Shown here one piece after another: positions 1-64,000 of a DNA stretch of 64,000 nt. The DNA comes from Imbricaverruca yamaguchii (taxonomy: Eukaryota; Arthropoda; Thecostraca; Neoverrucidae), in NCBI GenBank assembly GCA_034440575.1, contig JAOTOL010001616.1:1192501-1256500 (forward strand), read 5' to 3'. Each line of letters starts with the position of its first letter. Position 1 is the first letter of the stretch. Under the pieces are notes generated by a model. The model searched no databases, was not told the origin of the DNA, and saw only the letters and a list, made by a program, of their open reading frames with translations. The position numbers and the translations under genes are program-made.

Positions 1-946
1 CAGGCGTAGTTATTTGAGCGGTGAGTGGAATATTTCAAAAGTAACTCAAAATGATGCTGGTCGTTTTTCGAATGCCCGAAGAACAATAGTTTCGCGTCCG
101 CTTAACTGAATTGCGCCAGTCGGTGATCACATTGGATTTGTCCGCCTGCTGAACGGAGCCCTTTCGGCCAGTCCCACAACACAGGATGCAACCCAATACC
201 CAGCGCTAAAGGAGTACAGTTTTGCAGACTTTGGGGCTTTCTTCAGGGTTTCACCGGAACAAATGCGATTAGCGTCCAATTGTGGTCAGTTGGCAGTACG
301 GCGGGGACAGTCGTGGTCAATTAGCAATGCGATGATGTTGGTAGTGATTAGGTTCCACGAGTCAGTACTACGGTAAGGGTTGGGTTGCGGTCATTTGGTG
401 GCGGGTTTGGGGTACTTTTAACGGGGAAATTAGTTTTTGACATATGAACCAGTTTGTACCGGTGAGAAGTGGTAAAATACAGGCAAAAATTTGGTGTCAT
501 GTTTACAGTTCCTGGGATATCCGCTGCTTCAGTTTTACTTACTTCCAGGTATTATGCACGGTGTATGATAAGTGACAATACTAGACACATACACAGGAAG
601 TCTTATATATCCGAAAATATCAAGCAAAGTATTTGTAGGACACCTACCGCTAAACACCGGTAAGAACAGTGACATGTATGTTTTATCAGTGGTAAAGAAC
701 CAGTAAGGATATGTTTGGTGGGAAAAACTACCAACCTTGGTTGACAGTACTACGATGATGGTTGTAGTAAGGTGGCAGCATGACGATGATATTTGTGGTT
801 AGGTGGCAGTACGACAGTGATTGTGGTTAGGTGGCAGCATGACGATGATATTTGTGGTTAGGTGGCAGTACGACAGTGATTGTGGTTAGGTGGCAGCATG
901 ACGATGATATTTGTGGTGGCGATATCTGACAGACCTACTTTACTAG
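1..946 (+). other. Rbm19 intron, 5' part of window
   Basis: No coding segment is recognisable here. The stretch precedes the first Rbm19 exon found and is read as intron. From about 300 it carries decayed GGCAGTACG/GTGGTTAG motifs that become a regular tandem array near 752-918. The probable acceptor is the CTACTTTACTAG ending at 946. Confidence 0.55.
752..918 (+). repeat. Tandem repeat, ~30/60-bp unit, next to an Rbm19 exon
   Basis: The motif GTGGCAGCATGACGATGAT alternates with GTGGCAGTACGACAGTGAT, each followed by TTGTGGTTAG. This makes a ~60-bp higher-order unit of two ~30-bp halves. The array ends about 28 bp before the exon at 947. Confidence 0.8.
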
Positions 947-1086
947 CGTCGACCGACTTCAAGGCGAAGAAGGACAAGCAGTTGAAGAAGCAAGCGGGCT
1001 CGACGCACAACTGGAACGCCATGTTTTTCGGCGCGAACGCCGTGGCAGATTTGATGGCGGAAAAATACAACGTGGACAAAAGTGCC
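947..1086 (+). CDS. Rbm19: RBM19 exon: linker before RRM4
   Basis: RBM19 (yeast Mrd1) is a nucleolar protein with six RRMs that binds pre-rRNA and is needed for small-subunit processing. This exon encodes the conserved linker that ends in the HNWNAMFFGANAVADLMAEK segment. Vertebrate RBM19 has the closely similar FHNWNTLFMGPNAVAD there. The acceptor is taken as TAG at 944-946 (a weaker CAG ends at 932) and the exon enters with two bases of a split codon. It ends in frame as Lys-Ser-Ala at a GTGAGT donor. Joining it to the exon at 2290 gives the expected Lys-Ser-Ala/Val-Leu-Asp order. The 5' exons carrying RRM1-3 lie left of the window. Confidence 0.85.
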
Positions 1087-1387
1087 GTGAGTTTTTCAGT
1101 CACGGCAAAACACGTCCGACGACTGAATGCAATTTGTCGTTGGATGGGTTTGCCTGGTAGCTTTGGTGTCATTTTGAGGTTTTTGGTTTGGCTTATGCCC
1201 ACTGCACCCGGAATCCCAGCATGTCTGCCAAATTCCCAAATATGTCGGCGCCGTACCTCGGCATGCTCGTTCCATTCCACAGTATGGGAATGCATTGTTC
1301 AGCAGACTGCTCTACTCCTCAGTATGTCGGGCCACCTGATTACTTAGTTTGCTTGAGCAATTCCCCAGCATGTCAGCATTGTTTGTC

Positions 1388-2265
1388 GGTTGGCGGCCGT
1401 TCCTCAGTATGTATCGGCCGTGCCTTAGTATATATCGGCCGTTTCTCAGTATATGTCAGCCGTTCCTCAGTATATATCGGCCGTTTTTCAGTATATATCT
1501 TCCTTCCTCAGTATTTGTCGGCCATTTCTCAGCATATATCTGCCACTTCTCAGTATATATCGGCTGTTTCTCAGTATATGTCGGCCGTTTCTCAGTATAT
1601 ATCGGCCGTTTCTCAGTATATGTCAGCCGTTCCTCAGTATATATCGGCCACTTCTCAGCATATATCTGCCATTTCTCAGTATGTGTCGGCCGTTTCTCAG
1701 TATATGTCAGCCGTTCCTCAGTATATATAGGCTGTTTCTCAGTATATGTCGGCCGTTTCTCAGTATATATCGGCTGTTTCTCAGTATATGTCGGCCGTTT
1801 CTCAGTATATATCGGCCGTTTCTCAGTATATGTCGGCCGTCTCTCAGCATATATCGGCTGTTTCTCAGTATATGTCGGCCGTTTCTCAGTATATATCGGC
1901 TGTTTCTCAGTATATGTCGGCTGTTTCTCAGTATATATCGGCTGTTTCTCAGTATGTATCGGCTGTTTCTCAGTATATGTCGGCTGTTTCTCATTGTATG
2001 TCGGCTGCGCCTCAGTATATATCGGCTGTTTCTCAGCATATATCTGCCATTTCTCAGTATATATCGGCTGTTTCTCAGTATATGTCGGCCGTTTCTCAGT
2101 ATATATCGGCCGTTTCTCAGTATGTGTCGGCCGTTTCTCAGTATATATCGGCCGTTTCTCAGTATGTGTGGGCCGTTTCTCAGTATATATCGGCCGTTTC
2201 TCAGTGTATGTCGGCTGCGCCTCAGTATATATATCGGCCGTTTCTCAGTATGTGTCGGCCGTGCC
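1388..2265 (+). repeat. 21-bp minisatellite in Rbm19 intron (~40 copies)
   Basis: The unit is CGGCCGTTTCTCAGTATAT plus two bases, with C/T and A/G variants. Because 21 is a multiple of 3, long spurious frames run through it on both strands. Every unit contains TTTCTCAG, a pyrimidine run followed by CAG that resembles a 3' splice site. The array stops about 25 bp before the exon at 2290. Confidence 0.93.
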
Positions 2266-2289
2266 TCAGCACGTGTGTGCCACCACCAG

Positions 2290-2548
2290 GTACTGGACAG
2301 CAGCGGCCAGGGCAGTGCCGCTGTCCGACTGGCGCTGGGAGAGACGCAGCTGGTCTCCGAGACGCGCGACTTTCTGGAGGAGCACGGCGTGCGGCTGGAC
2401 GCGTTCTCCCGGCCGGCGGTGCAGCGCAGCAAAACCGTGATCCTGGCCAAGAACCTGCCGGCCCACACGGCGCCTGCCCAGCTGCGCGAGATGTTCTCCC
2501 GGCATGGCGAGCTGGGCAGGGTGGTGTTGCCGCCTAGCGGCATCACAG
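2290..2548 (+). CDS. Rbm19: RBM19 exon: linker and N-terminal half of RRM4
   Basis: The exon begins after CCACCACCAG and encodes ALGETQLVSETRDFLEEHGV, the conserved segment just before RRM4. It continues into RRM4 with KTVILAKNLP (RNP2) and LREMFSRHGELGRV. Vertebrate RBM19 has SKTVILVKNLP at the same place. It ends with Gly-Ile-Thr plus one base at a GTCAGT donor (phase 1). The next exon supplies the other two bases and continues Ala-Val-Ile-Glu-Phe, so RRM4 is completed without a gap. Codon use is strongly G/C at third positions, unlike the flanking introns. Confidence 0.95.
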
Positions 2549-5018: not shown

Positions 5019-5180
5019 GGCTAGCTAGTAATGAGGTAGTCTGCAAGCGACTAACCCAGCACGGTATGTCGTAGCACCGCGGGGCGCAGCCGGCTGTTAG
5101 CTAGCAATGAGGGGTACCCTGCAGGCGACTAACCCGTCACCGTGCGCCACAGCACTTCGTGGGCTGTGGACGGCTGCTAA
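5019..5180 (+). repeat. Two-copy duplication across the acceptor of the RRM5 exon
   Basis: GCTAGCTAGTAATGAGG...GCGACTAACCC at about 5021-5057 recurs as GTTAGCTAGCAATGAGG...GCGACTAACCC at about 5097-5135. The similarity continues through the splice site. Upstream GTAG/CACCGCGGGG at 5071-5084 corresponds to the real ACAG/CACTTCGTGG at 5149-5162, and GGCTGTTAGC corresponds to GGCTGCTAAGC. The upstream copy is therefore a decayed acceptor plus exon start, about 78 bp away. Confidence 0.6.
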
Positions 5181-5355
5181 GCGCAGTAGTATCGCGCAAG
5201 AAGGACGCGAAGCGGCCCGGCCAGCTGCTCTCCCAGGGGTACGGCTTCGTCAGCTTCCTGCGGCGGAAGGACGCCAAGAAGGCGCTGAAGGAGCTGCAGC
5301 AGGCGATGCTGGACGGTCACTCGCTGGAGCTGAAGGTGTCCAACCGCACCAGCGC
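5153..5355 (+). CDS. Rbm19: RBM19 exon: bulk of RRM5
   Basis: After the acceptor GCGCCACAG the frame reads HFVGCGRLLSAVVSRKKDAK, then SQGYGFVSFLRRKDAKKAL (RNP1 and helix 2) and GHSLELKVSNR (final strand). The family has similar QGYGFVEYxxxxxAQKALKxLQ and GHxLEVRISER segments. The entry phase fits the preceding GAG-ending exon. The exon leaves in phase 2 at GTGAGT. A later CAG at 5184-5186 could be mistaken for the acceptor, but it would delete helix 1 of RRM5. Confidence 0.95.
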
Positions 5356-6240: not shown

Positions 6241-6345
6241 AACGTGCACGTGGTGGCAACAGTAGTGCGGACGTACGGTGAGTGGTCACAGTGTGTATGT
6301 GTGTGTGTGAAGGTACATTGAGTGACTGAGTGTCCACACCGGCAG

Positions 6346-7691: not shown

Positions 7692-7910
7692 TTTTGTCAG
7701 GCGTACTCGGGCTAACGCTCGTTGGTCGGCAGGACGTTCGGTGATCTGTAGAAGTTATTAGACTCGGCTGACACTCGCTGGTTGTCGGGACGTTTGAGAG
7801 CTGTAGAAGTTATTAGACTTGGCTGACACTCGTTGGTAGTCGGGACGTTTGGGAGCTGTACAAGTTATTAGACCCGCCTGACGCTCGTTGGTCGTCAGGA
7901 CGTTCGGTGA
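7692..7910 (+). repeat. ~63-bp tandem repeat containing the RRM6 exon acceptor
   Basis: Four units carry CGTTGGTCGGCAGGACGTTC, TGGTTGTCGGGACGTTTGAG, TGGTAGTCGGGACGTTTGGG and finally the real TGGTCGTCAG/GACGTTCGG. Between them lies GAGCTGTAGAAGTTATTAGAC. The acceptor and the first ~16 nt of the exon at 7899 are thus the last unit of an intronic array. Two of the decayed copies have lost the AG (GGG for CAG). Confidence 0.85.
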
Positions 7911-8011
7911 GCTGGCTGCAGTCAGGCTGCCTCAGAAGATGTCGGGGCTCGGTACTGGCCCGCACAGGAGGTTTCGCCTTCGTCGAGTTCAGCACACGAC
8001 ATGACGCCAAG
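7899..8011 (+). CDS. Rbm19: RBM19 exon: middle of RRM6, with a 1-base frame break
   Basis: After GTCGTCAG the frame reads Lys-Thr-Phe-Gly-Glu-Leu, then AAVRLPQKMSGLGTGPHR, which matches the RRM6 loop of RBM19 (FGELKTVRLPKK...GTGxHRG). At about 7966-7971 (CACAGGAGGTTTCGCC) one extra base shifts the frame. Skipping it restores Gly-Phe-Ala-Phe-Val-Glu-Phe, the RNP1 motif, and then STRHDAK up to the GTGAGT donor. Exon length also shows the excess: 113 nt gives the wrong exit phase for the next exon, while 112 fits. This may be an assembly indel or a real lesion. Confidence 0.88.
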
Positions 8012-9219: not shown

Positions 9220-11062
9220 TGTGTGTGGCTTTGACCGTCGCCTGTGTATGGACCGTTGACTGTCTGGACTGTGTGCTGACCGTTGACTGTCGGGACTGTG
9301 TACTGACCGTTGACTGTCGGGACTGTGTACTGACCGTTGACTGTCGGGACTGTGTACTGACCGTTGACTGTCTGGACTGTGTGCTGACCGTTGACTGTCG
9401 GGACCGTGTACTGACCGTTGACTGTCGAGACTGTGTACTGACCGTTGACTGTCGAGACTGTGTACTGACTGCTGACCGTCGACTGTCTGGACTGTGCACT
9501 GACCGTTGACTGTCGGGACTGTGTACTGACCGCTGACCGTCTGGACTGTGTACTGACCGCTGACTGTCGGGACCGTGTACTGACCGTTGGCAGTGTACTG
9601 ACCGTCGCCTGTGTACGGACCGTTGACTGTCGGGACCGTGTACTGACCGTCGCCTGTGTGCTGACCGTCGCCTGTGTACTGACCGTCGCCAGTGTACTGA
9701 CCGTCGCCTGTGTACTGACCGTCGCCTGTGTACGGACCGCTGACTGTCGGGACCGTGTACTGACCGCTGACTGTCGGGGCCGTGTACTGACCGCTGACCG
9801 TTGGCAGTGTACTGACCGTCGTCTGTGTACGGACCCCTGACTGTCGGGCTGTGCACTGACCGTCGCCTGTGTACTGACCGTCGCCTTTGTACTGACCGTC
9901 GCCTGTGTACGGGCCGTTGACTGTCTGGACCGTGTACTGACCGTGCCTGTGTCTGACCGTGCCTGTGTACACCGTGCCTATGTACCGTTGACCGCCGATG
10001 TGCCGGCAGCGTGGTTGCCGCGCTTGTTGTGACACATCTGTACGGCCGCCGCAGTGTACTGACCGTCGCTGTCTGACTGTGGCTGTGTACTGACCGTTGC
10101 CAGTGTACTGACCGTCGCCTGTGTACGCACCGTTGACCGCCGATGTGCCGGCAGCGTGCGTTCGCCGCGCTCTGTTCGTCGACACATCTGTACGGCCGCC
10201 GACAGTGTACTGACCGTCGCCTGTGTACTGACCGTCGCCTGTGTACTGACCGTCGCCTGTGTACTGACCGTCGCCAGTGTACTGACCGTCGCCTGTGTAC
10301 TGACCGTCGCCTTTACACGTTGACCGCCTTCGACTGGTTGCGTTGTAAATTGTAGGCGACAGTGTACTGACCGTCGCCTGTGTACTGACCGTCGCCTGTG
10401 TACTGACCGTCGCCTGTGTACGGACCGTTGACTGTCGGGACTGTGTACTGACCGCTGACTGTCCGTGTACTGACCGTGCCTGTGTACTGACCGTCGCCTG
10501 TGTAACCGTTACATTGGACGTTGTGTGTAAATTGTAGGCGCCGACTGTACTGACCGTGCGTGTACTACCGACGTGCACCGCGTGTACTGACCGTCGCCTG
10601 TGTACTGACCGCTGACTGTCGGGACTGTGTACTGACCGTCGCCTGTGTACTGACCGCTGACTGTCGGGACTGTGTACTGACCGTCGCCTGTGTACTGACC
10701 GTCGCCTGTGTACTGACCGTTGACCGTCGCCTGTGTACTGACCCTACTGTCGCTGTGCTGTCGCCTGTGAGCGCCTGTGTACTGACCGTGCCTGTGTACT
10801 GACCGTCGCCTGTGTACGACCGTTGACCGCCGATGTGCAGGTGCGTTGCCGCGCTCTGTTCGTCCACAATGTACGGCCGCCGACTGTGTTGACCGTGCTG
10901 TACTGACCGTCGCCTGTGTACTGACCCCTGCGGCGCCTGACCGTCGCCTGTGTACGGACCAGTGTACTGACCGTCGCCTGTGTACTGACCGTCGCCTGTG
11001 TACTGACCGTCGCCAGTGTACTGACCGTCGCCTGTGTACGGACCGTTGACCGCCGATGTGCC
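9220..11062 (+). repeat. 18-bp minisatellite (1.8 kb) with embedded partial exon copies
   Basis: The basic unit is GTACTGACCGTCGCCTGT (18 bp), mixed with TGACCGTTGACTGTCGGGAC variants. Three interruptions (about 9985-10050, 10135-10200, 10815-10880) are partial copies of the downstream exon at 11068. Each has CCGTTGACCGCCGATGTG and a CGGCAG-like acceptor, then decayed GCGTTCGCCGCGCTCTGTTC and ACATCTGTACGGCCGCCG. Indels are frequent between 10,740 and 10,960. Confidence 0.92.
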
Positions 11063-11067: not shown

Positions 11068-11194
11068 CGTGCGTTCGCCGCGCTCTGTTCGTCCACACAT
11101 CTGTACGGCCGCCGGCTGGTGCTGGAGTGGGCGGCCGCCGACGACGACGTCGACACGCTGCGGCTCAAGACGGCCGCGCACTTCGGCGGCGACG
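11068..11194 (+). CDS. Rbm19: RBM19 exon: end of RRM6 and C-terminal tail
   Basis: After GATGTGCCGGCAG the exon encodes RAFAALCSSTHLYGRRLVLE and Trp, then an acidic stretch and LRLKTAAHFGGDG. Vertebrate RBM19 has KRAFNALCHSTHLYGRRLVLEWA and RRKTAAHF at the same places. It starts on a codon boundary, as expected once the extra base in the previous exon is ignored. It ends in phase 1 at GAC-G/GTGAGT. The first ~50 nt are also present as three imperfect copies in the upstream array. Confidence 0.95.
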
Positions 11195-12681: not shown

Positions 12682-12728
12682 CGCCGTCTAAGAAGAGGGT
12701 CAAGATGGACGACGAAGGCCAGAGCTGA
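12682..12728 (+). CDS. Rbm19: RBM19 final exon with stop codon
   Basis: After TCTCGCACCACAG two bases complete Ala. The frame then reads PSKKRVKMDDEGQS and stops at TGA 12726-12728. A basic KKKR-type motif soon after RRM6 is also present near the C-terminus of vertebrate RBM19 (PPKKKRS). This protein ends much sooner after it than human RBM19. The short tail fits the phase exactly. I see no AATAAA in the following ~900 bases, so the poly(A) site is not assigned. Confidence 0.85.
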
Positions 12729-14908
12729 AGTCTGCTGGTGTGACTGGTCCAGCCGCCAGGTGGCCGACCAGCGGTCCTCTGAGCTGGACCACGGGCCGCC
12801 GCCGCGATGCCTGCGGCAGACAGACGTTACGTGACCACATTGTCGTGTGAAGCGTGGGCGGTGACAGGGGCGTGGCCAGCTGGGCCCGGCCCGGCTATGA
12901 GCGACAACACCTGAACTGACCTGTGGCGATGCAATACAATGCCGAATGCGACGTTGTTGGGCAGATGCCGGCGCCGTGGGCGACGCTCCACTGACTGACT
13001 ACGAGCTCAGTTTGACGTGCCGTGGCGTGACCTTTAGCTCTGAAGGTCCGATCGCGGTGATTGGTCGAAGGCGCTCACCCGCATGGTTGGCGACACGGCG
13101 GGGGTGTCAGTCGCGTGCTCGGTGTCGCAGCGGCAGCTGCCTCGTCAGCTGGGGATCGGTGACACACCGTAGTTCGGCGGTTGGGAGTCGCAGACCCACA
13201 GGATGGAGGTGTACCGGCAGCCCGGGCTATTGGCAGCCATGCTCGCTGTCCTGTGGTGGGCCCAAGGTACGCATGGTGCCGCCAAAGGCTCGCATTCGTA
13301 AGCTTCGCAATATGCCGTTCAGGTGTGTAACGTTAAAGTCTAGGTGGTCATGCAGGTACAAACTGAGTTCTGGGACACTGGAATTTGGTTGTTTACGTAC
13401 AACGAGGATATATGTGAAGCCAAGTCGAGAGCATGACAACTTTCCTTCACGGTTGAACGGGCACCCACAAACATGCTGTGTGCACACAAAAAGTCGCGTT
13501 GCAAATTATGTTCTATTAGCCGTTAAAGCTGTTCCAATGCAGTTGCAACCCGTGATACTTCACGGGTTGCAACTGCATTGGAACAGTGTGTAGATTTGGC
13601 AAAATGTCGGCCTCTTACTCGAGCTTTCACTAATTATTCACATTTAATCCCAAGCCTTAGAACAAAATGCTTCTTACAATACCAAGGCCAAAACTGCAAG
13701 TGAAAGCGTTTCACAAAGCACACTTGTGCAAAGTGCACCCACAATTATTTCTGTTAATATCGCACCCCCGTAAATGGATATTAACATAAATGAATATCGC
13801 ACAACGTTGCTTTGTGGGAACATGCAAATGTATCGAATGGAAGGTAGAAAAAAGTATAAATCGAAGAAAAGAAAACTAATCTGGTGAGCACTGAAAGCAA
13901 TCGGTTCACGCTGTGACGAGCTATACGAGTTTAAGAACGAGGTGCATATGCATGCACGTTCGGGGGCATATTTATTGGAGAAATCTTACTCGTGCCTCGC
14001 CTTCTCTTGCAATAGCATTCAGGGACATTCATCGGTGTTCGACTGAGGCCACCATGATCACTGGGATGCCCCAGACGCGAAGTCAGCAATGTACTCACCA
14101 GCACGTGCCTCCGGACATGTCCTAAAGCCCCCCTCAAAATTAAGCCGGGTGCCTATTAGAAGGAACTTTTTGCCACTCGGGATTAGTTAATTATTGGGGT
14201 TTAAGGGCGCACCGACTGCGTCAATCATGCAGTCCCCCTCGGGATTAAATGTGGCACCCCTTTTGGCGCTATGTCGGTCTTCTCTGATTTCATATCGTCC
14301 CTGTGAATCTATTGATGCCCCTCCTCAGCTACGGAACGTCCCGTGCAATGTTTAGGGAACAGTCGGGGCCGTTTTTTGAGGTCTCGAAAAGCCCCTGTAA
14401 TTGTTGCATTGCGCCTCCTTGATATCGGAACTCTCCTCTGGAGTTGCCAGTGCCACGGCATACAACTGCAGCTACCTTGCGCTAGCTAGTTGGATATGCG
14501 AGAACACCAACATAAGGGTCACGTGGCGGTGTTGAACCAGGGCGCACTCTGAGCCCACCAGTACGCCTGCCACTGACCTCTTGTCCCTGCGCTATTCGAG
14601 ACTTAAAAAAAAACTCAGCGGGCCCTGGAAACAAAGTGACGCCCTGCAAATGCTTTATGAAACTTCGGCACGCCGTTCTGAAGATATTCTCACTGTCCCA
14701 ACTCTACAGGGCGCTCCTCTGAAGTGGCTTAGTGTGTCCCTTGATGGGTGGAACACATCGAGGATCCTGGTTACCGTTAATTCTGGTACACCCTCCAGAT
14801 GCCAATGTGGGTTTCCGTAGTTACGCAATGGGTGCCACTGTAACTACCAACTCCCCGACAATTTTCGCCGACACCAGCCGCCACAGAACTTGACCTAACC
14901 CGTCTTGA
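12729..14908. other. Intergenic region between Rbm19 and the SVWC gene
   Basis: No gene is recognised. A 215-codon open frame at 12,946-13,593 has no recognisable motif and no clear codon bias. The main structure is the perfect hairpin at 13,529-13,586. From 14,120 to 14,580 the phrase CTCGGGATTA recurs twice, without forming an array. Unseen 5' exons of the SVWC gene could lie here. Confidence 0.5.
13529..13586. other. Perfect 27-bp inverted repeat (hairpin)
   Basis: Arms 13,529-13,555 and 13,560-13,586 are exact reverse complements separated by TACT. Outside the perfect arms a G-T pair follows and then pairing ends. As RNA this would be a very stable fold-back in the size range of small hairpin precursors. 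As DNA it could be a short fold-back insertion. Confidence 0.95.
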
Positions 14909-14917
14909 TCAGGTCAG

Positions 14918-15099
14918 ATGGCTCACGAGACCATGACACCGGATATGGTGTTCTACGGGTGTTCGCCGTTCGTCATGGCCAGTCGACGGCTGCCAGTGAC
15001 GCTGCTGTACAACCAGCGGGTCAACGATCCGGGCCACTGCGCCGAGTACGCCTGTCTGCGCAGTCGGCACAGCGGCGTGTACCGCGTGGTCAGACGCAG
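14918..15099 (+). CDS. SVWC-domain protein, exon with first half of domain
   Basis: The frame reads MAHETMTPDMVFYGCSPFVM, later LPVTLLYNQRVNDPGHCAEY, and ends HSGVYRVVRR plus AG. The DPxxCxxYxC pattern is typical of the N-terminal half of single-domain von Willebrand factor C proteins, which are secreted arthropod factors including Vago-like immune peptides. There is no signal peptide, so this is probably an internal exon. It is entered at CAG/GT (14912/14913) or CAG/ATG (14917/14918); an in-frame TGA lies at 14906. It ends in phase 2 at CGCAG/GTGAGC and joins the exon at 19,078 perfectly. The last ~27 nt plus donor are repeated ~45 times in the intron. Confidence 0.75.
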
Positions 15100-17553
15100 G
15101 TGAGCCTGTCTGCCCGGGACACACAGTGGCCTGTACCGCGTGGTCAGACGCAGGTGAGCCTGTCTGCCCAGTGGCCTGTACCGCGTGGTCAGACGCAGGT
15201 GAGCCTGTCTGCCCGGGACACACAGCGGGCTGTACCGCGTGGTCAGACGCAGGTGAGCCTGTCTGCCCAGTGGCCTGTACCGCGTGGTCAGACGCAGGTG
15301 AGCCTGTCTGCCCGGGACACACAGCGGCCTGTACCGCGTGGTCAGACGCAGGTGAGCCTGTCTGCCCGGGACACACAGCGGCCTGTACCGTGTGGTCAGA
15401 CCCAGGTGAGCCTGTCTGCCCGGGACACACAGCGGCCCGTACCGCGTGGTCAGACGCAGGTGAGCCTGTCTGTCCGGGACACACAGCGGGCTGTACCGCG
15501 TGGTCAGACGCAGGTCTGCCCGGGACACAGTGGCCTGTACCGCGTGGTCAGACGCAGGTGAGCCTGTCTGCCCGGGACACACAGTGGCCTGTACCGCGTG
15601 GTCAGACCCAGGTGAGCCTGTCTGCCCGGGCACACAGCGGCCCGTACCGCGTGGTCAGACACAGGTGAGCCTGTCTGCCCGGGACACACAGCGGCGTGTA
15701 CCGCGTGGTCAGACGCAGGTGAGCCTGTCTGCCCGGGACACACAGCGGCTTGTACCGCGTGGTCAGACGCAGGTGAGCCTGTCTGCCCGGGACACACAGC
15801 GGGCTGTACCGCATGGTCAGCCTGTCTGCCCGGGACACACAGTGGCCTGTACCGCGTGGTCAGACGCAGGTGAGCCTGTCTGCCCGGGACACACAGCGGC
15901 TTGTACCGCGTGGTCAGACGCAGGTGAGCCTGTCTGCCCGTGACACACAGTGGCCTGTACCGCGTGGTCAGACGCAGGTGAGCCTGTCTGCCCGTGACAC
16001 ACAGTGGCCTGTACCGCGTGGTCAGACGCAGGTGAGCCTGTCTGCCCGGGACACACAGCGGGCTGTACCGCATGGTCAGCCTGTCTGCCCGGGACACACA
16101 GTGGCCTGTACCGCGTGGTCAGACGCAGGTGAGCCTGTCTGCCCGGGACACACAGCGGCTTGTACCGCGTGGTCAGACGCAGGTGAGCCTGTCTGCCCGG
16201 GACACACAGCGGCCTGTACCGCGTGGTCAGACGCAGGTGAGCCTGTCTGCCCGGGACACACAGTGGCCTGTACCGTGTGGTCAGACCCAGGTGAGCCTGT
16301 CTGCCCGGGACACACAGTGGCCTGTACCGCGTGGTCAGACGCAGGTGAGCCTGTCTGCCCGGGACACACAGCGGGCTGTACCGCGTGGTTAGACGCAGGT
16401 GAGCCTGTCTGCCCGGGACACACAGCGGGCTGTACCGCGTGGTCAGACGCAGGTGAGCCTGTCTGCCCGGGACACACAGTGGCCTGTACCGTGTGGTCAG
16501 ACCCAGGTGAGCCTGTCTGCCCGGGACACACAGTGGCCTGTACCGCGTGGTCAGACGCAGGTGAGCCTGTCTGCCCGGGACACACAGCGGGCTGTACCGC
16601 ATGGTCAGCCTGTCTGCCCGGGACACACAGTGGCCTGTACCGCGTGGTCAGACGCAGGTGAGCCTGTCTGCCCGGGACACACAGCGGGCTGTACCGCGTG
16701 GTTAGACGCAGGTGAGCCTGTCTGCCCGGGACACACAGCGGGCTGTACCGCGTGGTCAGACGCAGGTGAGCCTGTCTGCCCGGGACACACAGCGGGCTGT
16801 ACCGCGTGGTCAGACGCAGGTGAGCCTGTCTGCCCAGTGGCCTGTACCGCGTGGTCAGACGCAGGTGAGCCTGTCTGCCCGGGACACACAGCGGCCTGTA
16901 CCGCGTGGTCAGACGCAGGTGAGCCTGTCTGCCCAGTGGCCTGTACCGCGTGGTCAGACGCAGGTGAGCCTGTCTGCCCGGGACACACAGCGGCCTGTAC
17001 CGCGTGGTCAGACGCAGGTGAGCCTGTCTGCCCGGGACACACAGCGGCCTGTACCGCGTGGTCAGACGCAGGTGAGCCTGTCTGCCCGGGACACACAGCG
17101 GCCTGTACCGCGTGGTCAGACGCAGGTGAGCCTGTCTGCCCGGGACACACAGCGGGCTGTACCGCGTGGTCAGACGCAGGTGAGCCTGTCTGCCCGGGAC
17201 ACACAGCGGGCTGTACCGCGTGGTCAGACGCAGGTGAGCCTGTCTGCCCGGGACACACAGCGGCCTGTACCGCGTGGTAGAGAGGTAGCCTTTGTCTGCC
17301 CAGTGGCCTGTACCGCGTGGTCAGACGCAGGTGAGCCTGTCTGCCCGGGACACACAGCGGGCTGTACCGCGTGGTCAGACCCAGGCGAGCCTGTCTGCCC
17401 GGGACACACAGCGGGCTGTACCGCGTGGTCAGACACAGGTGAGCCTGTCTGCCCGGGACACACAGCGGCCTGTACCGCGTGGTCAGACGCAGGTGAGCCT
17501 GTCTGCCCAGTGGCCTGTACCGCGTGGTCAGACGCAGGTGAGCCTGTCTGCCC
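15100..17553 (+). repeat. 54-bp array of exon end plus splice donor (~45 copies)
   Basis: Each unit holds CTGTACCGCGTGGTCAGACG then CAG/GTGAGCCTGTCTGCCC then GGGACACACAGCGG. This is the last ~27 nt of the SVWC exon, its donor, and a pyrimidine stretch ending in CACAG. The main unit is 54 bp. A 45-bp variant lacks the CGGGACACA stretch, and a few units are shorter. The units are nearly identical, including the GTGAGC, except for minor forms such as CAGACCCAG. Long frames in all registers are repeat artefacts. Confidence 0.95.
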
Positions 17554-17584
17554 GGTTCGGTTTACGATAAACGGATTTGCGTAC

Positions 17585-18294
17585 ATTTGTCCGGTTGCGT
17601 ACATAACCGGACAAATCTACGTAAGAAAATGTACGTATGGCAATCGTACGTAAGCGTAGTTGTACGTACGGCTAATGAACGTTAGCGCAAATATACGCAA
17701 ATATACGCGCAAATGTACGTATGCCCAATTGCACTTAAGCGCAAAAGTACGTGTGCGCAAATGTGCGTAAGCGCAAATGTGTCCAAGGGCAAATGTATGT
17801 AAGCGTAAAAGTACGAAGTGCACGAAGTACCCAAGCGCAACAATACGTAAACGTAAAAGAATGCAAGAGCAAATGGAAGTATGAGCCAATGTTCGTACAT
17901 TTAGGCATACGTGCCTTTGTATTCAAGCACATTTTGTTAGGTGCATATGCCATGCATACATTTGCTTGTACGTACATTTGTCACACGTACATTTGTGCAT
18001 AAGTACTTTTGCGGATACGCACTTTTGCGTATACGCACATTTGCTCGTACATGCATTTGCGCTTACGTATATTTGCTCTTGCGTATTTCTATGCATACGT
18101 ACATTTGCGCTTACGTACTTTTGCGCATACGTACTTTTGCGCATACGTACATATGCGCTTACGTACATTAGCCATATGTACATCTGCGCTTACGTACAAT
18201 TGCCACACGTACATCAGCGCTTACGCACATGTGTGCGTACATTTTCGTGCGTACGTCTGCCATACGCACATATGCCATACACATTTGTCCGGTT
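17585..18294. mobile_element. Fold-back element with inverted internal sub-repeats
   Basis: The left half (about 17,604-17,930) consists of degenerate GCGCAAATGTACGTAA-type units. The right half (about 17,950-18,290) has the reverse complement, TTACGTACATTTGCGC. The ends carry AACCGGACAAAT (17,605-17,616) and ATTTGTCCGGTT (18,283-18,294), each bordered by TA. A second ATTTGTCCGGTT at 17,585-17,596 makes a small hairpin with the left end. There is no transposase, so it would be non-autonomous. It sits inside the SVWC intron, directly after the 54-bp array. Confidence 0.65.
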
Positions 18295-26691: not shown

Positions 26692-26868
26692 ACCAAAGGG
26701 GATTGGGGTGGATTGGATTGGATTGTGGCTTTACCACGACCTCAGCAGCTGAGGCGGTATGGCGTCGCCTGCCTCTCACCCTGGCAGGAAGGGCGGGCAT
26801 CGCGGGGAATCGAACTCCGTACCTCCGGCGTGCCAGACGCTCAGCTTAACCACTGAGCTACCGATGCC
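26692..26868 (-). mobile_element. tRNA-derived SINE
   Basis: On the minus strand the head begins GGGCATCGGTAGCTCAGTGG and contains GGAGTTCGATTCCCC. GGGCATC and GATGCCC can pair as a 7-bp acceptor stem. The anticodon arm does not form a normal 5-bp stem and 7-nt loop, so it is not a functional tRNA. A ~90-bp body and an (AATCC)-type tail (plus strand TTGGATTGGATTG) follow. Head, body and tail are all present, so the call is fairly firm. Confidence 0.75.
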
Positions 26869-28410
26869 CTTAACCGAAGCGAAGATAACAATGTTCCAAG
26901 TAACTGTTAGTTCAATGATGAAGCTACGTGATGTCCTTAATCGCATGTCTCCATCCAGTTCAGAACAAATGTTAATTAGGGTAGATGTATCATTATGCTT
27001 CACCTCCCACGCAATGCGAGCGGTAGGAAATTCTTCCGCACTTTGATGGCATAGGGCAGGTGACCGATAGCGCGCGCGTATGATCTCGAAAGTGAAGCAT
27101 AATGACAATACATGGAACACTGTCATTTGGGTGCTACTGCACTCGCTGTAAGACGACGAAGGCACTACTGTCCAACGGATGTTGTTGCCCAGGTTTCGAG
27201 GAGTTGGTAGATATAAAAATACTGGCCCTTTCAAAAGCACTTAAGGCATTGTACACTTATCAGGTAGGGGATTCCACCCGCTGTGCTTTTCCTTCTGCCA
27301 TTCCCTAATTCGTCCTGATACGAACACCCAATCAGGTAGCTTTTCCTAACATTTTTTTTTTTATTCGTACAAACATCGTAACTGCGTAAGGCGGCTCCAG
27401 AAGCGAATATTTGTAGACACTTGCCACATATTTCTGCGGAACTTACGAAAAACCAATGCATCTGAATTTGTGTCCTTATTTTGTTTCCTGCCGCACGAAA
27501 ATGTATATTCTGAGCCTAATCATGTCCGGCTCGGACGAAGGAAATAACAAATAATGGCAGGTCTTCTCAAAGCGGTATCATTTATGTTGCCATCGGAAGG
27601 ATGGGAGAGTTCAGCGAATTCAGCACAGACGGCAATAATGCACCACAAGCAGTGGCAGAGCCAGAATATTGTCCCAATGGCGCGACGACGGTGACACAGA
27701 AGCGACTCGCATTATATATTCATGCATGTAAGAATTGAAAAAATGATGGTGTTTGTAACCCTAATTGCGAAGAGGGACCAATCACAAAAACCATTCTACC
27801 CCTCCTTAGGCTCCTGTACACGCCATTAGCTATTGTAAGTGTGCATGCATGGACATACAATGGTGCTTTGACCATGAAGTCCATCCATGCACAACAATAC
27901 ACTCAGGTGAACGATACTGAGTATAAAATACACTCAGTGTCAAATGATTTTGTATAAAGTTCCCACAATGATTTGCCTGCTGACCGCTCTTTTGCTAAAC
28001 GTTAATTGTTCGCGCTCTGAATGCATAGTGCAGACTAGTAGAATTCGCTTGAGCTATAGCGTGCCCCGTTTTGAAATCAGCCCAATAGACTCAAAGATCT
28101 GAGATGGGTGTGGGAGGGGCCGAATCCGCCTCTTACTGATTCAAGTCCAGAACATCCCTACCGTAACGGGATTAAGCGAGAACCCGGTTAATGGAAGGCT
28201 GGGCTTTGGAGCGCATCACCGGCTACTGGTTATGTAGCGGCTAACTGAAGGCGCCCCAAAATCGAATGACAGTGCTTGAAGAAAACGAACGACAGATTTC
28301 GATTAAAATAACATATTCGTATTGAGGGCACGCACTATTTTCTAATACGATGTCTCGTCTTTGCAGTTTTCGAAGTTCTTCTAAGAAACTGTGGAAGGCG
28401 CAACAGATTA
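26869..28410. other. Intergenic region without recognised features
   Basis: A/T-rich unique sequence. Open frames are short and lack motifs. No array or tRNA-like element was seen. Confidence 0.55.
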
Positions 28411-29565: not shown

Positions 29566-30084
29566 ACAAAGTCACTCCTGACCATCAGAGGTGGTCCCTG
29601 GCCGTTAGACAGCTTCTCTCTAACCAGCATGCATGTCCTAACTGACCATCAGACATAATTTTCCCGACCATGAGGCCGGGCCTCCATGAGGTGGTCATGA
29701 GAAAGCTGCCCCTGACCATCAGACAAGGTCGCTCTGCCTATCAGACATGGACTCGCCAGCCATCAGACAGTGCCTCCCTGACCATCAGACAGGGCCTCCC
29801 TGACCGACAGGCAGGGCAGTCCTGGGCTCCATTCTCGGCCGCTGGACAAGGTCACACACCGTCAGATATTGCAGCAGCCACGAGGCAGTCGGTCGACCGT
29901 CGGCGACACTGCGACAGGCCGGCTGAGCAGCAGCCACGAGGCGGTCGGTCGGGCGTCAGCGACACTGCGACAGGCCGGCTGAGCAGCAGCCGCACCAGAG
30001 GCGGGCGGTCGACCACACGACACGGCGGGACAGGCCGACTGAGCGGCAGCGGCGGCGGTCGGCGCACACTGCGACAGGCGACGG

Positions 30085-30290
30085 CCACAGCCGCCGCACC
30101 ACTCGACGGACGGCGGGTGGCCACAGCCGCCGCACCACTCGACGGACGGCGGGCGGCTACAGCCGCCGCACCACTCGACGGACGGCGGGCGGCCACAGCC
30201 GCCGCACCACTCGACGGACGGCGGGCGGCTACAGCCGCCGCACCACTCGACGGACGGCGGGCGGCCACAGCCGCCGCACCACTCGGCGTT
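30085..30290 (+). repeat. 36-bp array immediately after the Wnt16 stop
   Basis: The unit is CAGCCGCCGCACCACTCGAC then GGACGGCGGGCGGCTA, with T/C alternation in the last bases, in about 5.5 copies. In Wnt16 orientation it starts about 16 nt after the stop codon and so would be transcribed as 3' UTR. A looser GGTCGG/ACAGGCCG repeat precedes it at 29,880-30,080. Confidence 0.9.
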
Positions 30291-30305: not shown

Positions 30306-30407
30306 CTATTTACACGTGTGAGTGTCCAGCAGGGTGATGCACGTCTTGCAGTGCACCTTGCAGCACCAGACGAACTTGCAGTGACACCGCTCGGCCCTCC
30401 GGGTCAC
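30306..30407 (-). CDS. Wnt16: Wnt16 last exon (C-terminal Cys-rich end)
   Basis: On the minus strand, after CTGTCCGACAG the frame reads [20 protein letters not shown] then [13 protein letters not shown] and stops at TAG (plus 30,306-30,308). This is the universal Wnt C-terminus, with RCxCKFxWCCxVxCxxC and HTCK, and it forms part of the Frizzled-binding C-terminal domain. It enters on a codon boundary, matching the CAG that ends the upstream exon (33,854). A Cys-rich Wnt end split into its own exon is less usual than a single large final exon. Confidence 0.95.
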
Positions 30408-33474: not shown

Positions 33475-33853
33475 CATTGTGCGATCATCTACACAACATG
33501 ACTGTGTGTTGTAGCCTCGACCGCAGCGACATCTACACACCATACCTGTGTGTTGTAGCCTCGACCGTAGCGACATCTACACACCATACCTGTGTGTTGT
33601 AGCCTCGACCGTAGCGACATCTACACAACATGACTGTGTGTTGTAGCCTCGACCGTAGCGACATCTACACAACATAACTGTGTGTTGTAGCCTCGACCGC
33701 AGCGACATCTACACACCATACCTGTGTGTTGTAGCCTCGACCGCAGCGACATCTACACACCATACCTGTGTGTTGTAGCCTCGACCGCAGCGACATCTAC
33801 ACACCATACCTGTGTGTTGTAGCCTCGACCGCAGCGACATCTACACACCATAC
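33475..33853 (-). repeat. 44-bp array of Wnt16 exon end plus splice donor (~8-9 copies)
   Basis: On the minus strand each unit is CTGCGGTCGAGGCTACAACA then CACAG/GTATGGTGTGTAGATGTCG. The first 25 nt equal the last 25 nt of the exon at 33,854-34,084, and GTATGG is its donor. Copies farther from the exon have C/T changes (GTATGG to GTCATG). Confidence 0.93.
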
Positions 33854-34084
33854 CTGTGTGTTGTAGCCTCGACCGCAGCAGAGCAGGTCGCAACTGTCGG
33901 GGCCGTTGGAGTTTTTGCTGCACTCGCGGCCCTGTGTGCCCAGGATGCCCATCTTGGGGTTGTGCAGACAGTAGTTTGGACTCTGGTCAATGTAGACCAG
34001 CTGTCGACGCTTGGGAGACTGCTGGCTGCGCCGGCCTCGTCCCCGGCGACGTTTGCGGCGCAGTCGTCGCCGCTTGCTGGCCAC
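33854..34084 (-). CDS. Wnt16: Wnt16 exon with linker and NYC...GRGYNT region
   Basis: The minus frame starts [20 protein letters not shown], a very basic insert, then [29 protein letters not shown]. Vertebrate WNT16 has KSPNYC, GIPGTQGREC and [12 protein letters not shown] at these places, the best subfamily match I recall. The exon is exactly 77 codons, phase 0 at both ends, with acceptor GTCGATACAG and donor CACAG/GTATGG. The basic stretch corresponds to the Lys/Arg-rich linker of WNT16, here Arg-heavy. WntA or Wnt4 are the alternatives. Confidence 0.93.
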
Positions 34085-43982: not shown

Positions 43983-44139
43983 CTGCATCCTCCCCACTTC
44001 CAGCCTTGAGGTGTCGACCTGCCCTCCGAGGTGGCGTCACACGTGCACTCGGTCAAGTTGCCGGAGCTGCACGCCTGTGTGACGGCATGCACCACACCGG
44101 CCGACGTCACCGCGTACACGAACGCCGTCTCCTTGCTCC
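43983..44139 (-). CDS. Wnt16: Wnt16 exon: [18 protein letters not shown] to GWKWGGC (GC donor)
   Basis: The minus frame reads [41 protein letters not shown]. All are core Wnt blocks, and NLTEC carries a potential N-glycosylation site. It is entered with GG after GTGCCGCAG (phase 1 from the exon at 58,017). It leaves as TGC-AG/GCAAGT. The donor is GC, not GT, and is otherwise a perfect match to the GC-AG consensus. The next exon begins with T to give Ser-Asp-Asp, so the junction is secure. Confidence 0.95.
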
Positions 44140-58016: not shown

Positions 58017-58170
58017 CTCGCTGCAGCGTGTACCTGAAGACGTTCTGGTCGCTGTCCGACGTGGTGGTACAGTTCCAGCGTTCGTTGCGGAACTGCCACT
58101 GACACTCCTGGATGCCCTTGCGCGCGCCGTCCGACACGGACGGAATGGCCGCCGGGTGGGTCTGGCACAC
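58017..58170 (-). CDS. Wnt16: Wnt16 exon: first Cys cluster and ERWNC
   Basis: The minus frame reads VCQTHPAAIPSVSDGARKGI, QECQWQFRNERWNC, then SDQNVFRYTLQRG. The GIQECxxQFRxERWNC block is close to vertebrate WNT16 (GARLGIQEC..QFRHERWNC) and supports this subfamily over WntA or Wnt4. It enters on a codon boundary after GCATGCCGACAG and leaves with one base at CGA-G/GTGAGT. Joined to 44,139 it gives LQRG-SKETAF, as in WNT16 (LSSG-TKETAF). No residues appear to be missing. Confidence 0.95.
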
Positions 58171-58179
58171 CTGTCGGCA

Positions 58180-58760
58180 TGCGAAAACGGTCTCAGCGGG
58201 CGCCCAGACGGTCCTCAGTGGCACGCACACGGTCTCAGCTGGAGCACAGACGGTCCTCAGTGGCACGGACACGGTCTCAGCTGGAGCACAGACGGTCCTC
58301 AGTGGCACGCACACGGTCTCAGCTGGAGCACAGACGGTCCTCAGTGGCACGCACACGGTCTCAGCTGGCGCACAGACGGTCCTCAGTGGCACGCGTACGG
58401 TCTCAGCTGGCGCACAGACGGTCCTCAGTGGCACGACACGGTCTCAGCTGGCGCATATACGGTCCTCAGTGGCACGCGTACGGTCTCAGCTGGAGCACAG
58501 ATGGTCCTCAGTGGCACGCACACGGTCTCAGCTGGAGCACAGACGGTCCTCAGTGGCACGCACACGGTCTCAGCTGGAGCACAGACGGTCCTCAGTGGCA
58601 CGCACACGGTCTCAGCTGGAGCACAGACGGTCCTCAGTGGCACGCACACGGTCTCAGCTGGAGCACAGACGGTCCTCAGTGGCACGCACACGGTCTCAGC
58701 TGTCGCGGCGCAGTCTCTGGTCCTCAGTGGCACACACACGGTCTCAGTTGGCGTATAGAC
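58180..58760 (-). repeat. 42-bp minisatellite beginning 10 bp from a Wnt16 acceptor (~13 copies)
   Basis: Plus-strand unit: GGCACGCACACGGTCTCAGC then TGGAGCACAGACGGTCCTCAGT. The exon-proximal unit is GGCATGCGAAAACGGTCTCA, so the intronic sequence next to the acceptor of the exon at 58,170 is the first, slightly different unit. As 42 is a multiple of 3, long frames run through. Confidence 0.95.
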
Positions 58761-59879
58761 GGTCCTCGATAGTACACGGATGGTCCTCAATGGTATGCAG
58801 ATTGTATCAGCTGGCGCACTGTCGAGCTCCTTTGATATGGCGACAGACATCGCAGCGTGGGTGCGGCGTAGGTCGCACTGGCGACAGGCAAGAACTGTCG
58901 TGTGGCTCTTATCGTGTGCCCGTGCGCGTGCAGACAACTTGCCATGTCATGCTTGGGTTTGTGTTATACACCATATCAGCCGAACCAGTCGGAATCTTTT
59001 AGTTTCGTCTCTTCATAGGCGGTACAATGGACGAGGGCCGAAGAGTCTGACGAAAATGATCTTGCATGGCATGCACAGCTGCAGACATTATGAACAGAGC
59101 AGCCTCCAACAAATCTCATTTCACAAATGGTCACAATGAAAGCAGCCTGCTACTTAATAAAGACAACTACCATAGGTGTCACCTTACGAAAAACATTTGG
59201 GGATGGGCAGTGACTGCGCAAGTGAAATCTGCGAAATGGCTAGACTACCATCCCCATATTTTATGGTCCATTTCTTGGTGTCACAGTGTGAAAGCTTCAT
59301 TAGGTTTTAGGCAGCGGGTAGATTCATCCACCACTTGATCACATTTGGGCATATGTGAGTTGTGTGGTGGGGTAGGCATATCCAAGATCAACATGATAAA
59401 GGTATACAACACAGAGGGCAACCACCTTCAAGCAAGTTTGGAAACACGAACTGCGGAAAATACAAGCATGGAGGATGGTGAGTGACTATTAAGCAATTGT
59501 GGGGGGAACGAAGAGTGGACATTTGGAGGTGACAGTGCCACATTAGCGTATACTAAGTGGTACGCCTGACAGCTACAATGGGAATATGAAAGTTTCCCCA
59601 TGTTCTATTGTATATTCCTAACACGAGCTTTGTGGCAGAGGCATTTTTTCTGGAGAAGCAAATAGAAACATGATATACACGCTTCGACGAAATGAAAAAA
59701 GCTCAACATAAGCTTGCACTTTCATTGAAGGCAACCACTGGAAGGCCCACCTCATCTTTCCAGTTTTACCAGGGAGTATGTACGTGTTGGTGCACGCAGG
59801 TGATTATATATATATATTTTTAAAACTAAATTTAGTCTGAGTTGTTACTCGCGTGGCTTTAGGAGCCAGGGTTCCATTG
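58761..59879 (-). other. Wnt16 intron, unique sequence
   Basis: No coding exon, array or tRNA-like structure was found until the SINE at 59,880. A short TATATATATA run lies near 59,808. Confidence 0.55.
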
Positions 59880-60155: not shown

Positions 60156-61654
60156 GGTAAGCCCATTGATAATTCCCGAAGCTTACACATCACAGTGAAA
60201 CATTCAAATTATTTTCTGTCGCACTGCAGGCTGCTCCAACTAATTTCTCTTGCGTTTTCCCAAGTTCGGCACCAGCTGCCACGATCTTGAGTGGGCCCCG
60301 CTGATTCAGGACGCACCACTAGGGCGTTTGACTTACGACAGCGTACAAAATCAGCCTGGCGGTACCCTTTTAATCCTGTTTCCAAACCTCTTCTGGTGAC
60401 CCAGCAATACTGCAATCACAAAGCCCACCACATATATTTTGATACCGAACTATTTGTACTAAATGGGTTTGTGTGTGTGTGGTAAGGTGGTGGAGGGTGG
60501 AAGTTCTCCCTGACAATGTTCCACTTTTTACCATTGACATTGCCACGGCAGGGATGACCTCAGGCAAGAAACTCACACACCTTCTCCATCTCCGTCGAAT
60601 TCGGGGACAATCAGCATGTGGTGCATATCATTCTCCTCTCCTCTCTTCCTTTCCCTTCCATCTTTCTCTCCTCTTCCTTTCTATTTCCATTTCGATTTCC
60701 ATCTCTTTTTCCCTCTCCCTCTCCTCGCTTTTCCCCTCACCTGTATCTGACTTTATCGGCATCGGCAGTGCTTTTCAATCTAACCTCAAGCTAAAGTCCA
60801 AGTCTATATGAAATAATTGCGAGGGTTGGTCGTAGGTGTGATGCCCTCTCGGCCAACATAACTATTGAAGTGAATACGTCAACCTCTAATTATCTGGTGT
60901 TCGATGGGCTGAAAAATGATTATATATCAAAATGTATAATGAAATATTAATCAGTGGAAAGAAAATGTGGCATTAATGACGCAATATAATGAAAAACGCC
61001 AGGCTTGCTTCCTGGCTGGAAACTTTTAGCGTTTCCTGTGACCTGGTGATTATTAAATGCCTTGAGACCGGGTGCAACGGACTTTGAATAATTGCCTGAA
61101 CTTTCCACCACGTATTCAGTAGGATTTCAGTCATAAACATTGATTCAGTAGATTCACCACACAAGCAGGTGCAGTCTCCTAGGCTTAGTTCAGGGATACA
61201 TTTATGTTAAAGTAGAAAGACGACAAACAGACTAATGGAAAATACGCCAGGTGTCAGCACAGCACAGATGCAAAATATTTCGTCGGCGAGCAGAATCGAA
61301 AGATCTCATTTCGCGACTGCAGTGACTCGACTTACATGCTGACCAGTACACTAGTCAGAATGGAAGTAGAGTAGTCTGCTTGTGCATGGAGTATTCGCAC
61401 TTTCTATTTCCGTAACCCATTCGAGGTGGGTTATATGTGTTCACCTGGCACATCCTGTACATCGATTCCATGATATGAAAATCATAAGGCAGCTCAAGTC
61501 AGCAAAACTCACTACCTGGCTTCCTGTCCGGAGAAGAAGCGCGAGGGGAGGTGGACATGGTGGTCGAATGGCCCAGACCTGTCGGGTCACCAGGCCAACA
61601 GCTGACTGTCGAACTCGACAGGGAACCGCCGACTGATCGGAACACACCAAATAT
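60156..61654 (-). other. Wnt16 intron without recognised features
   Basis: Unique sequence. It has a C/T-rich tract at 60,635-60,730 and no exon or array. Confidence 0.55.
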
Positions 61655-61815
61655 GACCGACTCGACTGACCGACTGACTCGACAAGCTGACTGACTGACT
61701 AGCTGACTCGACTGACCTTTATGTGTATCGATGCATCGAATGGCCTTCGTGTGATTCAGAAAAACGAAGTGTCCCTAAAAAGAATCGACCGACTCGACCG
61801 ACTCGACCGACTCGA
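61655..61815 (+). repeat. Degenerate GACTCGACC/GACTGACTC repeat
   Basis: ACCGACTCGACTGACCGACT-type motifs recur irregularly. The regular copies at 61,790-61,815 run right up to the donor (GTCAGTCGAG on the minus strand) of the Wnt16 exon at 61,821. Confidence 0.85.
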
Positions 61816-61820
61816 CTGAC

Positions 61821-61953
61821 CTCGATCTGGCGGGCCACCAGGCCAGGCAGGGCGGCGCAGATGGAGCGGGCGTGCTCCTCGGGCGTCTCGAAGTAGGGCT
61901 GGTCGGACGACATCTGAGTACCGCTCTGTCCGGCGCCCACCATTCCCAGGTAC
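61821..61953 (-). CDS. Wnt16: Wnt16 exon: N-terminal region after the signal peptide
   Basis: The minus frame reads YLGMVGAGQSGTQMSS, YFETPEEHARSICAALPGLV then ARQIE. ICAALPGLxxRQIEVC, continued by the next exon, corresponds to WNT16 CANLPLNSRQKELC, the start of the mature conserved region. It begins with one base after TTGTTGCAG and ends on a codon boundary at GAG/GTCAGT, in phase with 58,170. The signal-peptide exon is not in the window. The acceptor and first ~44 nt are repeated ~30 times upstream, so this copy, the only one with a full exon behind it, is taken as genuine. Confidence 0.9.
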
Positions 61954-64000
61954 CTGCAACAAGTGACGCTCAGTCACATCAGTACCTCTCTGTCCGGCGC
62001 CCACCATTCCCAGGTACCTGCAACATGTGCCGCTCAGTCACATCAGCACCTCTCTGTCCGGCGCCCACCATTCCCAGGTACCTGCAACAAGTGCCGCTCA
62101 GTCACATCAGCACTCTCTGTCCGGCGCCCACATTCCCAGTACCAGCATGGTGACGCTCAGTACATCAGACCTTCTTCCCCCCACCATTCACCCGCATGTG
62201 ACGCTCATACATCGTACCGTCCGGCGCCCTTGGCAAAAGTGACGCTCGGTCATCAGCACCTCTGTCCGGCGCCCACCATTCCCAGGTACCTGCAACAAGT
62301 GACCTCAGTACATCAGACCTCTCGCCCGCGCCCACCATTCCGGTACCTGCAACAAGTGACGCTCAGTCACATCAGTACCCTGTCCGGCGCCCACCATTCC
62401 CGGTACCTGCAACATGTGCCGCTGTCACATGTCCGGCGCCCACCATTCCAGGTACCTGCAACATGGGTGACGCTCAGTCACATCAGTACCTCTCTGTCCG
62501 GCGCCCACCATTCCCAGGTTCCTGCAACAAATGACGCTCAGTCACATCAGTACCTCTCTGTCCGGCGCCCACCATTCCCAGGTACCTGCAACAAATGACG
62601 CTCTCAGTACATCAGTACCTCTCTGTCCGGGCCCACCATTCCCAGGTACCTGCAGCATGGGTGACGCTCAGTACATCGTCCGGCGCCTACCATTCCCGGT
62701 ACCTGCAACAGTGACGCTCGGTCACATCAGTACTCTCTGTCCGGCGCCCACCATTCCCAGGTACCTGCAACATGTGACGCTCAGTCACATCAGACCTCTG
62801 TCCGGCGACCACCATTCCCAGGTACCTGCAACAAGTGACGCTCAGTCACATCAGTACCTCTCTGTCCGGCGCCCACCATTCCCAGGAACCTGCAACATCG
62901 GTGACGCTTAGTCACATCAGTACCTCTCTGTCCGGCGCCCACCATTCCCAGGTACCTGCAGCATGGGTAACGCTCAGTCACATCGGTACCTCTCTGTCCG
63001 GCGCCCACCATTCCCGTACCTGCAACAGTGACGTGTCACATCAGACTCTGTCCGGCGCCCCCATTCCCGGTACCTGCAACAATGACGCTCGTCACATCAG
63101 TACTCTCTGCCCGGCGCCCACCATTCCCGGTACCTGCAACATGGTGACGCTGTAATCAGTACCTTCTGTCCGGCGCCCACCATTCCCAGGTACCTGCAAA
63201 ATGACGCTCAGTACATCAGTATTTGTCCGGCGCCCACCATTCCCGGTACCTGCAACAATGCGCCTCGTCACATCAGTACCTCTGTCCGGCGCCCACCATT
63301 CCCGGTACCTGCAGCATGGGTGACGCTCGTCACATCGTCCCGCCACCATTCCCAGTACCTGCACAAGTGACGCTCGGTCACATCAGACTCTGTCCGGCGC
63401 CCACCATTCCCATACTGCAAAAGTGACGCTCATCACATCAGACTTCTGTCCGCGCCCACCATTCCCAGGTACTGCAACATGAGTAATAGACTTTCGCGAC
63501 ACATTCCGTACTAAATGTCAAGATTCCCCCACCATTCCCGTACCTGAAAGTGCCCTCATCACATCTCTCTCCGCACCCCATCCACTGCAACAGTGACGCT
63601 CAGTACATCGACTCGTCCGGCACATCCCGGTACCTGCAACAAGTGACGCTCAGTCACATCAGTACCTCTCTGTCCGGCGCCCACCATTCCCAGGTACCTG
63701 CAGCATGGGTAACGCTCAGTCACATCAGTACCTCTCTGTCCGGCGCCCACCATTCCCAGGTACCTGCAACAAGTGACGCTCAGTCACATCAGTACCTCTC
63801 TGTCCGGCGCCCACCATTCCCAGGTACCTGCAACAAGTGCCGCTCAGTCACATCAGCACCTCTCTGTCCGGCGCCCACCATTCCCAGGTACCTGCAGCAT
63901 GGGTGACGCTCAGTCACATCAGCACCTCTCTGTCCGGCGCCCACCATTCCCAGGTACCTGCAGCATGGGTGACGCTCAGTCACATCAGTACCTCTCTGTC
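61954..64000 (-). repeat. 64-bp array of Wnt16 exon start plus acceptor (~30 copies, runs off window)
   Basis: On the minus strand each unit holds CACTTGTTGCAG/GTACCTGGG, AATGGTGGGCGCCGGACAGA then GAGGTACTGATGTGACTGAG. The acceptor and the following ~44 nt match the exon at 61,821-61,953 with few changes (AGAGAGGTACTGATGT against AGAGCGGTACTCAGATGT). Units at both ends are clean. Those from about 62,120 to 63,620 are full of one- and two-base deletions. Confidence 0.95.

Follow-up and report, generated by a model that had tools for sequence, protein, structure and literature searches.

In amphioxus, minisatellite-like tandem repeats called 'mirages' lie across exon–intron boundaries in Adh3, the globin genes BflGb6 and BflGb9, PGBD5 and troponin C, according to parts of the two reports that describe them (PMC3087553, PMC3902484). 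The same parts record that the copies homogenise and vary in number, and that the authentic exon stands beside them. Here we describe arrays of this kind in a 64,000-nucleotide stretch of Imbricaverruca yamaguchii DNA (assembly GCA_034440575.1, contig JAOTOL010001616.1, positions 1,192,501 to 1,256,500; 'the window' throughout), together with their frequency at 251 splice junctions, 34 from the window and 217 from myosin and kinesin genes of the same genome. Tandem repeats spanning an exon–intron boundary, the structure that defines a mirage, are present here. As in the amphioxus genes, so far as the partial accounts go, the tandem units take in an exon edge together with the adjoining AG or GT, and 5' and 3' boundaries are both affected. 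The further mirage trait that many but not all units carry AG or GT was also found: 23 junctions together have 263 copies, of which 221 keep the dinucleotide. Mirages are reported gene by gene in those accounts, whereas the present count comes from another genome and shows that arrays are 4–5-fold over-represented at exon borders. Structures of this kind are thus already known from amphioxus, and the count of their frequency is the new part; the papers listed for such repeats, judged by titles or the opening of abstracts, included no arthropod case and no genome-wide count.

Two other systems are related. The human gene IFI6 (6-16) reportedly contains a minisatellite with multiple splice donors, described by Turri in 1995, in which the donor is said to lie within the units at an exon end. 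That case concerns one human gene, and the title of the paper names the donors as splice donor sites. Tandem duplications that carry splice signals can also create introns, as part of PMC4974935 sets out for ATP2A1, a potato RdRp and fission yeast. On that partial account, intron-gain duplications and the present arrays have in common a short genomic tandem duplication with splice signals, but the former create a new intron, whereas the present arrays lie within introns beside intact exons.

The original prediction held that the edges of six exons in the window, each with its splice signal, recur in neighbouring intronic repeats, and all six sets of copies are present, affecting three genes on both strands: Rbm19 (+), an SVWC gene (+) and a Wnt gene (−). 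One donor array belongs to the SVWC gene, where Tandem Repeats Finder (TRF) reported 47.9 copies of a 54-bp unit at 15068–17555 on the plus strand. Each unit joins the last 32 bp of the exon, which closes at 15,099, to 22 bp of intron containing GTGAGC, and its source is the donor edge of exon 2 (14913–15099). A second donor array, at 33481–33879 on the minus strand (TRF, 44-bp unit, 9.0 copies), repeats the end of the Wnt exon 33854–34084 (PF00110 in the rebuilt model), with 33,854 and GTATGG inside the unit. The acceptor edge (61,953) of another Wnt exon, 61821–61953, is repeated in an array that occupies 61920–64000 on the minus strand and extends beyond the window end; 32 copies of its 64–66-bp unit are within reach, with TTGTTGCAG and the first ~27–43 bp of the exon inside the unit. 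Within this array, units between 62,100 and 63,600 are rich in small deletions and those between 63,625 and 64,000 are cleaner; the deletion-rich stretch looks like long-read sequence that was poorly polished, or else like a block that has decayed.

The remaining three edges are Rbm19 acceptors on the plus strand. Upstream of the exon 7899–8011, an array at 7705–7904 (55-bp unit) holds three copies of the acceptor region and exon start. Embedded in an array at 9242–11046, whose own 18–27-bp unit is different, are three ~60-bp copies of the acceptor and start of the exon 11068–11194 (9989–10050, 10130–10200 and 10820–10881), two of them within the six-edit limit used for counting below. The acceptor of the exon 5153–5355 has been copied once: 5030–5099 is a decayed copy of 5106–5179, with an alignment score of 59 that was reached by none of 1,000 shuffles (best shuffle, 46).

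Further arrays had been described as stopping short of an exon at five places, and this description stood at four. TRF arrays end 29 bp short of the Rbm19 exon at 947 (752–917, +) and, with a 21-bp unit, 20 bp short of the Rbm19 exon at 2290 (1394–2269, +); a 42-bp-unit array at 58187–58767 (−) begins 16 bp upstream of the Wnt exon at 58,170; and the Wnt stop codon (30,306), where there is no splice edge, has a 36-bp-unit array at 30082–30285 (−) 20 bp away. At the Wnt donor at 61,821 the description failed, the 9-bp-unit array (61785–61825, −) overlapping that donor by 5 bp.

These positions refer to exons of the window genes rebuilt from the sequence, from which the 34 junctions result. Rbm19, recognised by its match to solved RBM19 domains, has nine exons within the window, the first at 947 and the last with the stop codon at 12,728; its exon 7899–8011 carries a 1-bp frameshift amid otherwise recognisable coding sequence, which is probably a residual assembly error. 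The SVWC gene, named for an arthropod domain, comprises exons at 13,203–13,266 and 14,913–15,099 and a next exon from 19,078, and its identity is weak (PF15430, E 0.0039, below the family cut-off). The Wnt gene (PF00110, E 1e-123) has seven exons within the window, and its reading frame stays open between 61,953 and the stop codon, which lies at 30,306; one of its exons ends at 43,983 in a GC donor (CAG|GCAAGT).

TRF returned 127 overlapping rows for the window. Merged by hand, with units below 7 bp excluded, these gave 45 arrays covering 25.4% of the window, and five of the 34 junctions are spanned by an array. Random placement of arrays within the non-coding flanks predicted 3.1 junctions that are spanned by an array or lie within 30 bp of one, against nine of 34 observed (P = 5e-5). 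This placement replaced a circular shift of junctions as the main test because the shift null lets exons land inside arrays.

The original prediction had proposed comparing array borders with splice junctions, at a distance of 30 bp, across the genome, and named a lack of enrichment as the outcome that would speak against it. Run on myosin and kinesin genes, the comparison found enrichment, and the clustering extends beyond the window. The sampled genome comprises 767 Mb in 1,430 contigs, and the window is part of the same assembly. Myosin-head and kinesin exons were found by profile match, and their junctions, which are sequence-inferred, were set by splice-site scores beside the match. For myosin, 71 of 72 matches were used, one long single-frame match being dropped, and two of the 142 exon ends had no splice candidate. 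For kinesin, 46 of 126 matches were used (30 plus 16 neighbours), junctions were kept if the flank was at least 150 bp, and one copy of a gene duplicated on contig C1362 was removed from the final count. An array spanned the junction or started within 30 bp into the intron at 40 of 217 junctions, against 8.5 expected under uniform placement, a ratio of 4.7 (bootstrap-by-contig range 3.7–6.0). Of the 31 contigs, 22 carried such arrays. Both families had them, at 27 of 140 myosin junctions (5.9 expected) and 13 of 77 kinesin junctions (2.6 expected; 15 of 83 against 3.1 before the duplicate gene was removed); 16 of the 217 junctions were spanned by a TRF array. Confident junctions alone gave 27 of 155 against 6.2 expected, and uncertain junction calls do not account for the enrichment. 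In the sampled myosin loci, minisatellites with a period of at least 7 accounted for 21% of the sequence, with roughly one array per kb of collapsed non-coding sequence.

The units of spanning arrays had been expected to align with the adjacent exon, and in the myosin and kinesin arrays they do: elsewhere in the genome, as in the window, coding sequence with its GT or AG is repeated many times. Acceptor and donor boundaries both carry arrays, with 20 donor copies at position 909178 of contig C1307 and 12 acceptor copies at position 1869393 of contig C1376, and one kinesin exon on C1362 has separate arrays at its acceptor and its donor. We counted copies of the junction itself with 26-mers, taking further copies with at most six edits within 1 kb and using a control that counts each array once. 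At least two further copies were found at 23 of the 251 junctions, against 6.9 expected (P = 6e-7), and at least one at 29, against 12.5 expected. Without the window, the counts were 18 of 217 for at least two copies (P = 2e-5) and 23 of 217 for at least one (P = 6e-4). Contig C1362 holds two copies of one kinesin gene, at ~849–852 kb and 1,419–1,422 kb, 570 kb apart, which represent either a recent duplication or unmerged haplotypes. The pair, whether alleles or paralogues, shares junction arrays whose unit numbers are 10.6 versus 9.6 in one array and 8.3 versus 10.1 in another, differences that fit a changing copy number.

Among the copies, variable positions made up 46 of 526 at the splice dinucleotides, 330 of 3,419 in exon sequence and 347 of 2,893 in other intron sequence, in a set that is biased because its copies were chosen for likeness. 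The copies therefore look tolerated, neither purged nor kept.

Several other causes do not explain the enrichment. GC content is higher beside exons (0.59 at 0–30 bp into the intron versus ~0.50 at 200–400 bp). Among junctions outside arrays, however, 28 of 230 had an array start at 0–30 bp, against 7.3 expected at GC-matched positions. Splice-like sequence does not suffice either: 19 of 118 real acceptors were near an array versus 20 of 1,090 decoys with a score of at least 2, and the corresponding counts for donors were nine of 112 and 21 of 844. General crowding of arrays was set aside because gaps of at most 30 bp made up 24 of 103 exon–array gaps and only one of 55 array–array gaps (window and myosin). 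As for array age, arrays of at least 92% identity were distributed as nine spanning, eight at 0–30 bp and four at 31–130 bp; those below 85% identity showed a weaker contrast (eight, ten and 12, respectively). Homogenisation could still mask the age of the arrays. Insertion of partly spliced cDNA, one of the origins that the original prediction had offered, is not supported: the units examined in myosin and kinesin arrays keep exon and neighbouring intron in their genomic order, and a search of the window with its 16 spliced exon–exon 30-mers found no copy at three or fewer edits.

We lean, though not far, towards the view that these minisatellites arose from genomic tandem duplications at junctions, expanded on the intron side and left extra splice sites that are tolerated, with junctions favoured about 4–5-fold. 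The process would start with a small genomic tandem duplication, of a unit of ~24–120 bp, that straddles or abuts an exon–intron junction. Where the duplication ended in both exon and intron, the whole exon would stay in place and a partial edge with its splice site would enter the intron; unequal exchange or slippage could then increase the number of copies on the intron side. Splicing would normally use the site still attached to the complete exon, the extra sites being tolerated, and amphioxus RT-PCR (reverse-transcription PCR), in part of PMC3087553, supports splicing at the intact copy. The enrichment of arrays at exon edges in the sample suggests in turn a bias of origin, in which exon edges would see duplications start or take hold at about 4–5 times the rate of other intron positions; breaks, R-loops or slippage may be its physical cause.

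A broader proposal is that exon–intron junctions act as mutational hotspots of short tandem duplication, through a probable link to transcription or splicing, and do so in two or more distant animal lineages. In such genomes about a tenth of junctions would bear duplicated splice sites, a ready reserve from which new introns and alternative exons could be drawn. We put this forward tentatively and consider it doubtful as a whole. If junctions do seed tandem duplications, transcription or splicing would be linked to mutation, new introns and alternative exons could form by this route, and this genome would offer many replicates for testing the idea. On the practical side, gene finders, read mappers and splice predictors have to deal with real exons that are flanked by tens of near-identical splice sites.

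A number of results weigh against a junction-biased origin. The circular shift over the whole window placed as many junctions or more in and near arrays as were observed (inside arrays, five of 34 versus 8.7 expected, P = 0.94; within 30 bp, nine of 34 versus 10.1, P = 0.68). Arrays that are near a junction without spanning it were not significantly enriched by the gap test in the window (4 of 34, P = 0.31) or in the kinesins (4 of 77 versus 2.6, P = 0.26), nor were they against GC-matched positions in the kinesins alone (4 of 68 versus 1.9, P = 0.12). Myosin junctions alone were weak on the copy measure, with no significant excess of at least one further copy (11 of 140 versus 7.5, P = 0.13) and eight versus 3.7 expected for at least two (P = 0.03). 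The array beside the Wnt stop codon suggests that the effect may reach beyond splice sites, and the presumed use of the intact copy in splicing is carried over from the amphioxus RT-PCR. GC-matched comparison of the non-spanning arrays in the window, though, did give an excess, four of 29 versus 0.9 expected (P = 0.014).

Of the other explanations, retention survives best, and we judge it unlikely. It supposes that duplications arise evenly in introns and persist beside exons since large indels are selected against there. On general reasoning, exon edges limit deletions, and arrays near exons are indeed longer (median 338 versus 147 bp). The most homogeneous arrays are nevertheless at least as sharply piled up at exons, a point that is not decisive because homogenisation can make old arrays look young, and copies of the junction are in excess despite the exon sequence that they duplicate.

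Slightly less likely again is the idea that any constrained or transcribed edge attracts or stops arrays, the splice site as such having no role. The Wnt stop codon, with its array at a distance of 20 bp, would suit it, and the non-spanning arrays at 0–30 bp agree with a barrier. A pure barrier, however, predicts few arrays crossing into exons, yet at least two junction copies were found at 23 of the 251 junctions, against 6.9 expected. Splice-like decoys in introns were no nearer to arrays (~2%) than ordinary non-coding positions (2.4%), a comparison that does not bear on other constrained edges.

Chance overlap in a genome rich in minisatellites is very improbable: the share of sequence in arrays (25% for the window, 21% for the myosin loci) and the negative shift test in the window speak for it, but myosin and kinesin genes both lie above the gap null. 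We give as little credence to the retention of copies as alternative or decoy splice sites, which the high share of copies with GT or AG (221 of 263) might suggest, since the splice dinucleotides have no clear extra conservation and reading continued beyond the authentic SVWC donor runs into a stop immediately. Least probable of all is an assembly artefact, with long reads collapsed or stuttered at repeats, for although the deletion-rich stretch at ~62,100–63,600 and the frameshift in the Rbm19 exon at 7899 suggest residual errors, the copies differ by many substitutions, and arrays near or across junctions are seen in each copy of the C1362 kinesin gene and on 22 of the 31 contigs.

Other features were noted in passing. 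Between 17612 and 18230 of the window, two arrays with 16-bp units face each other as inverted repeats, with 157-nt arms that are 72% complementary and shorter arms reaching up to 88%; they are flanked by CCGGACAAAT near 17,607 and ATTTGTCCGG near 18,283, and the element may represent a fold-back transposon whose inverted ends resemble arrays. A tRNA-Pro gene (TGG) lies on the minus strand at 26792–26869 of the window. The genome search returned 21 tRNA matches, four of them above 70 bits, and 37 histone matches, 14 of which fall on a single contig.

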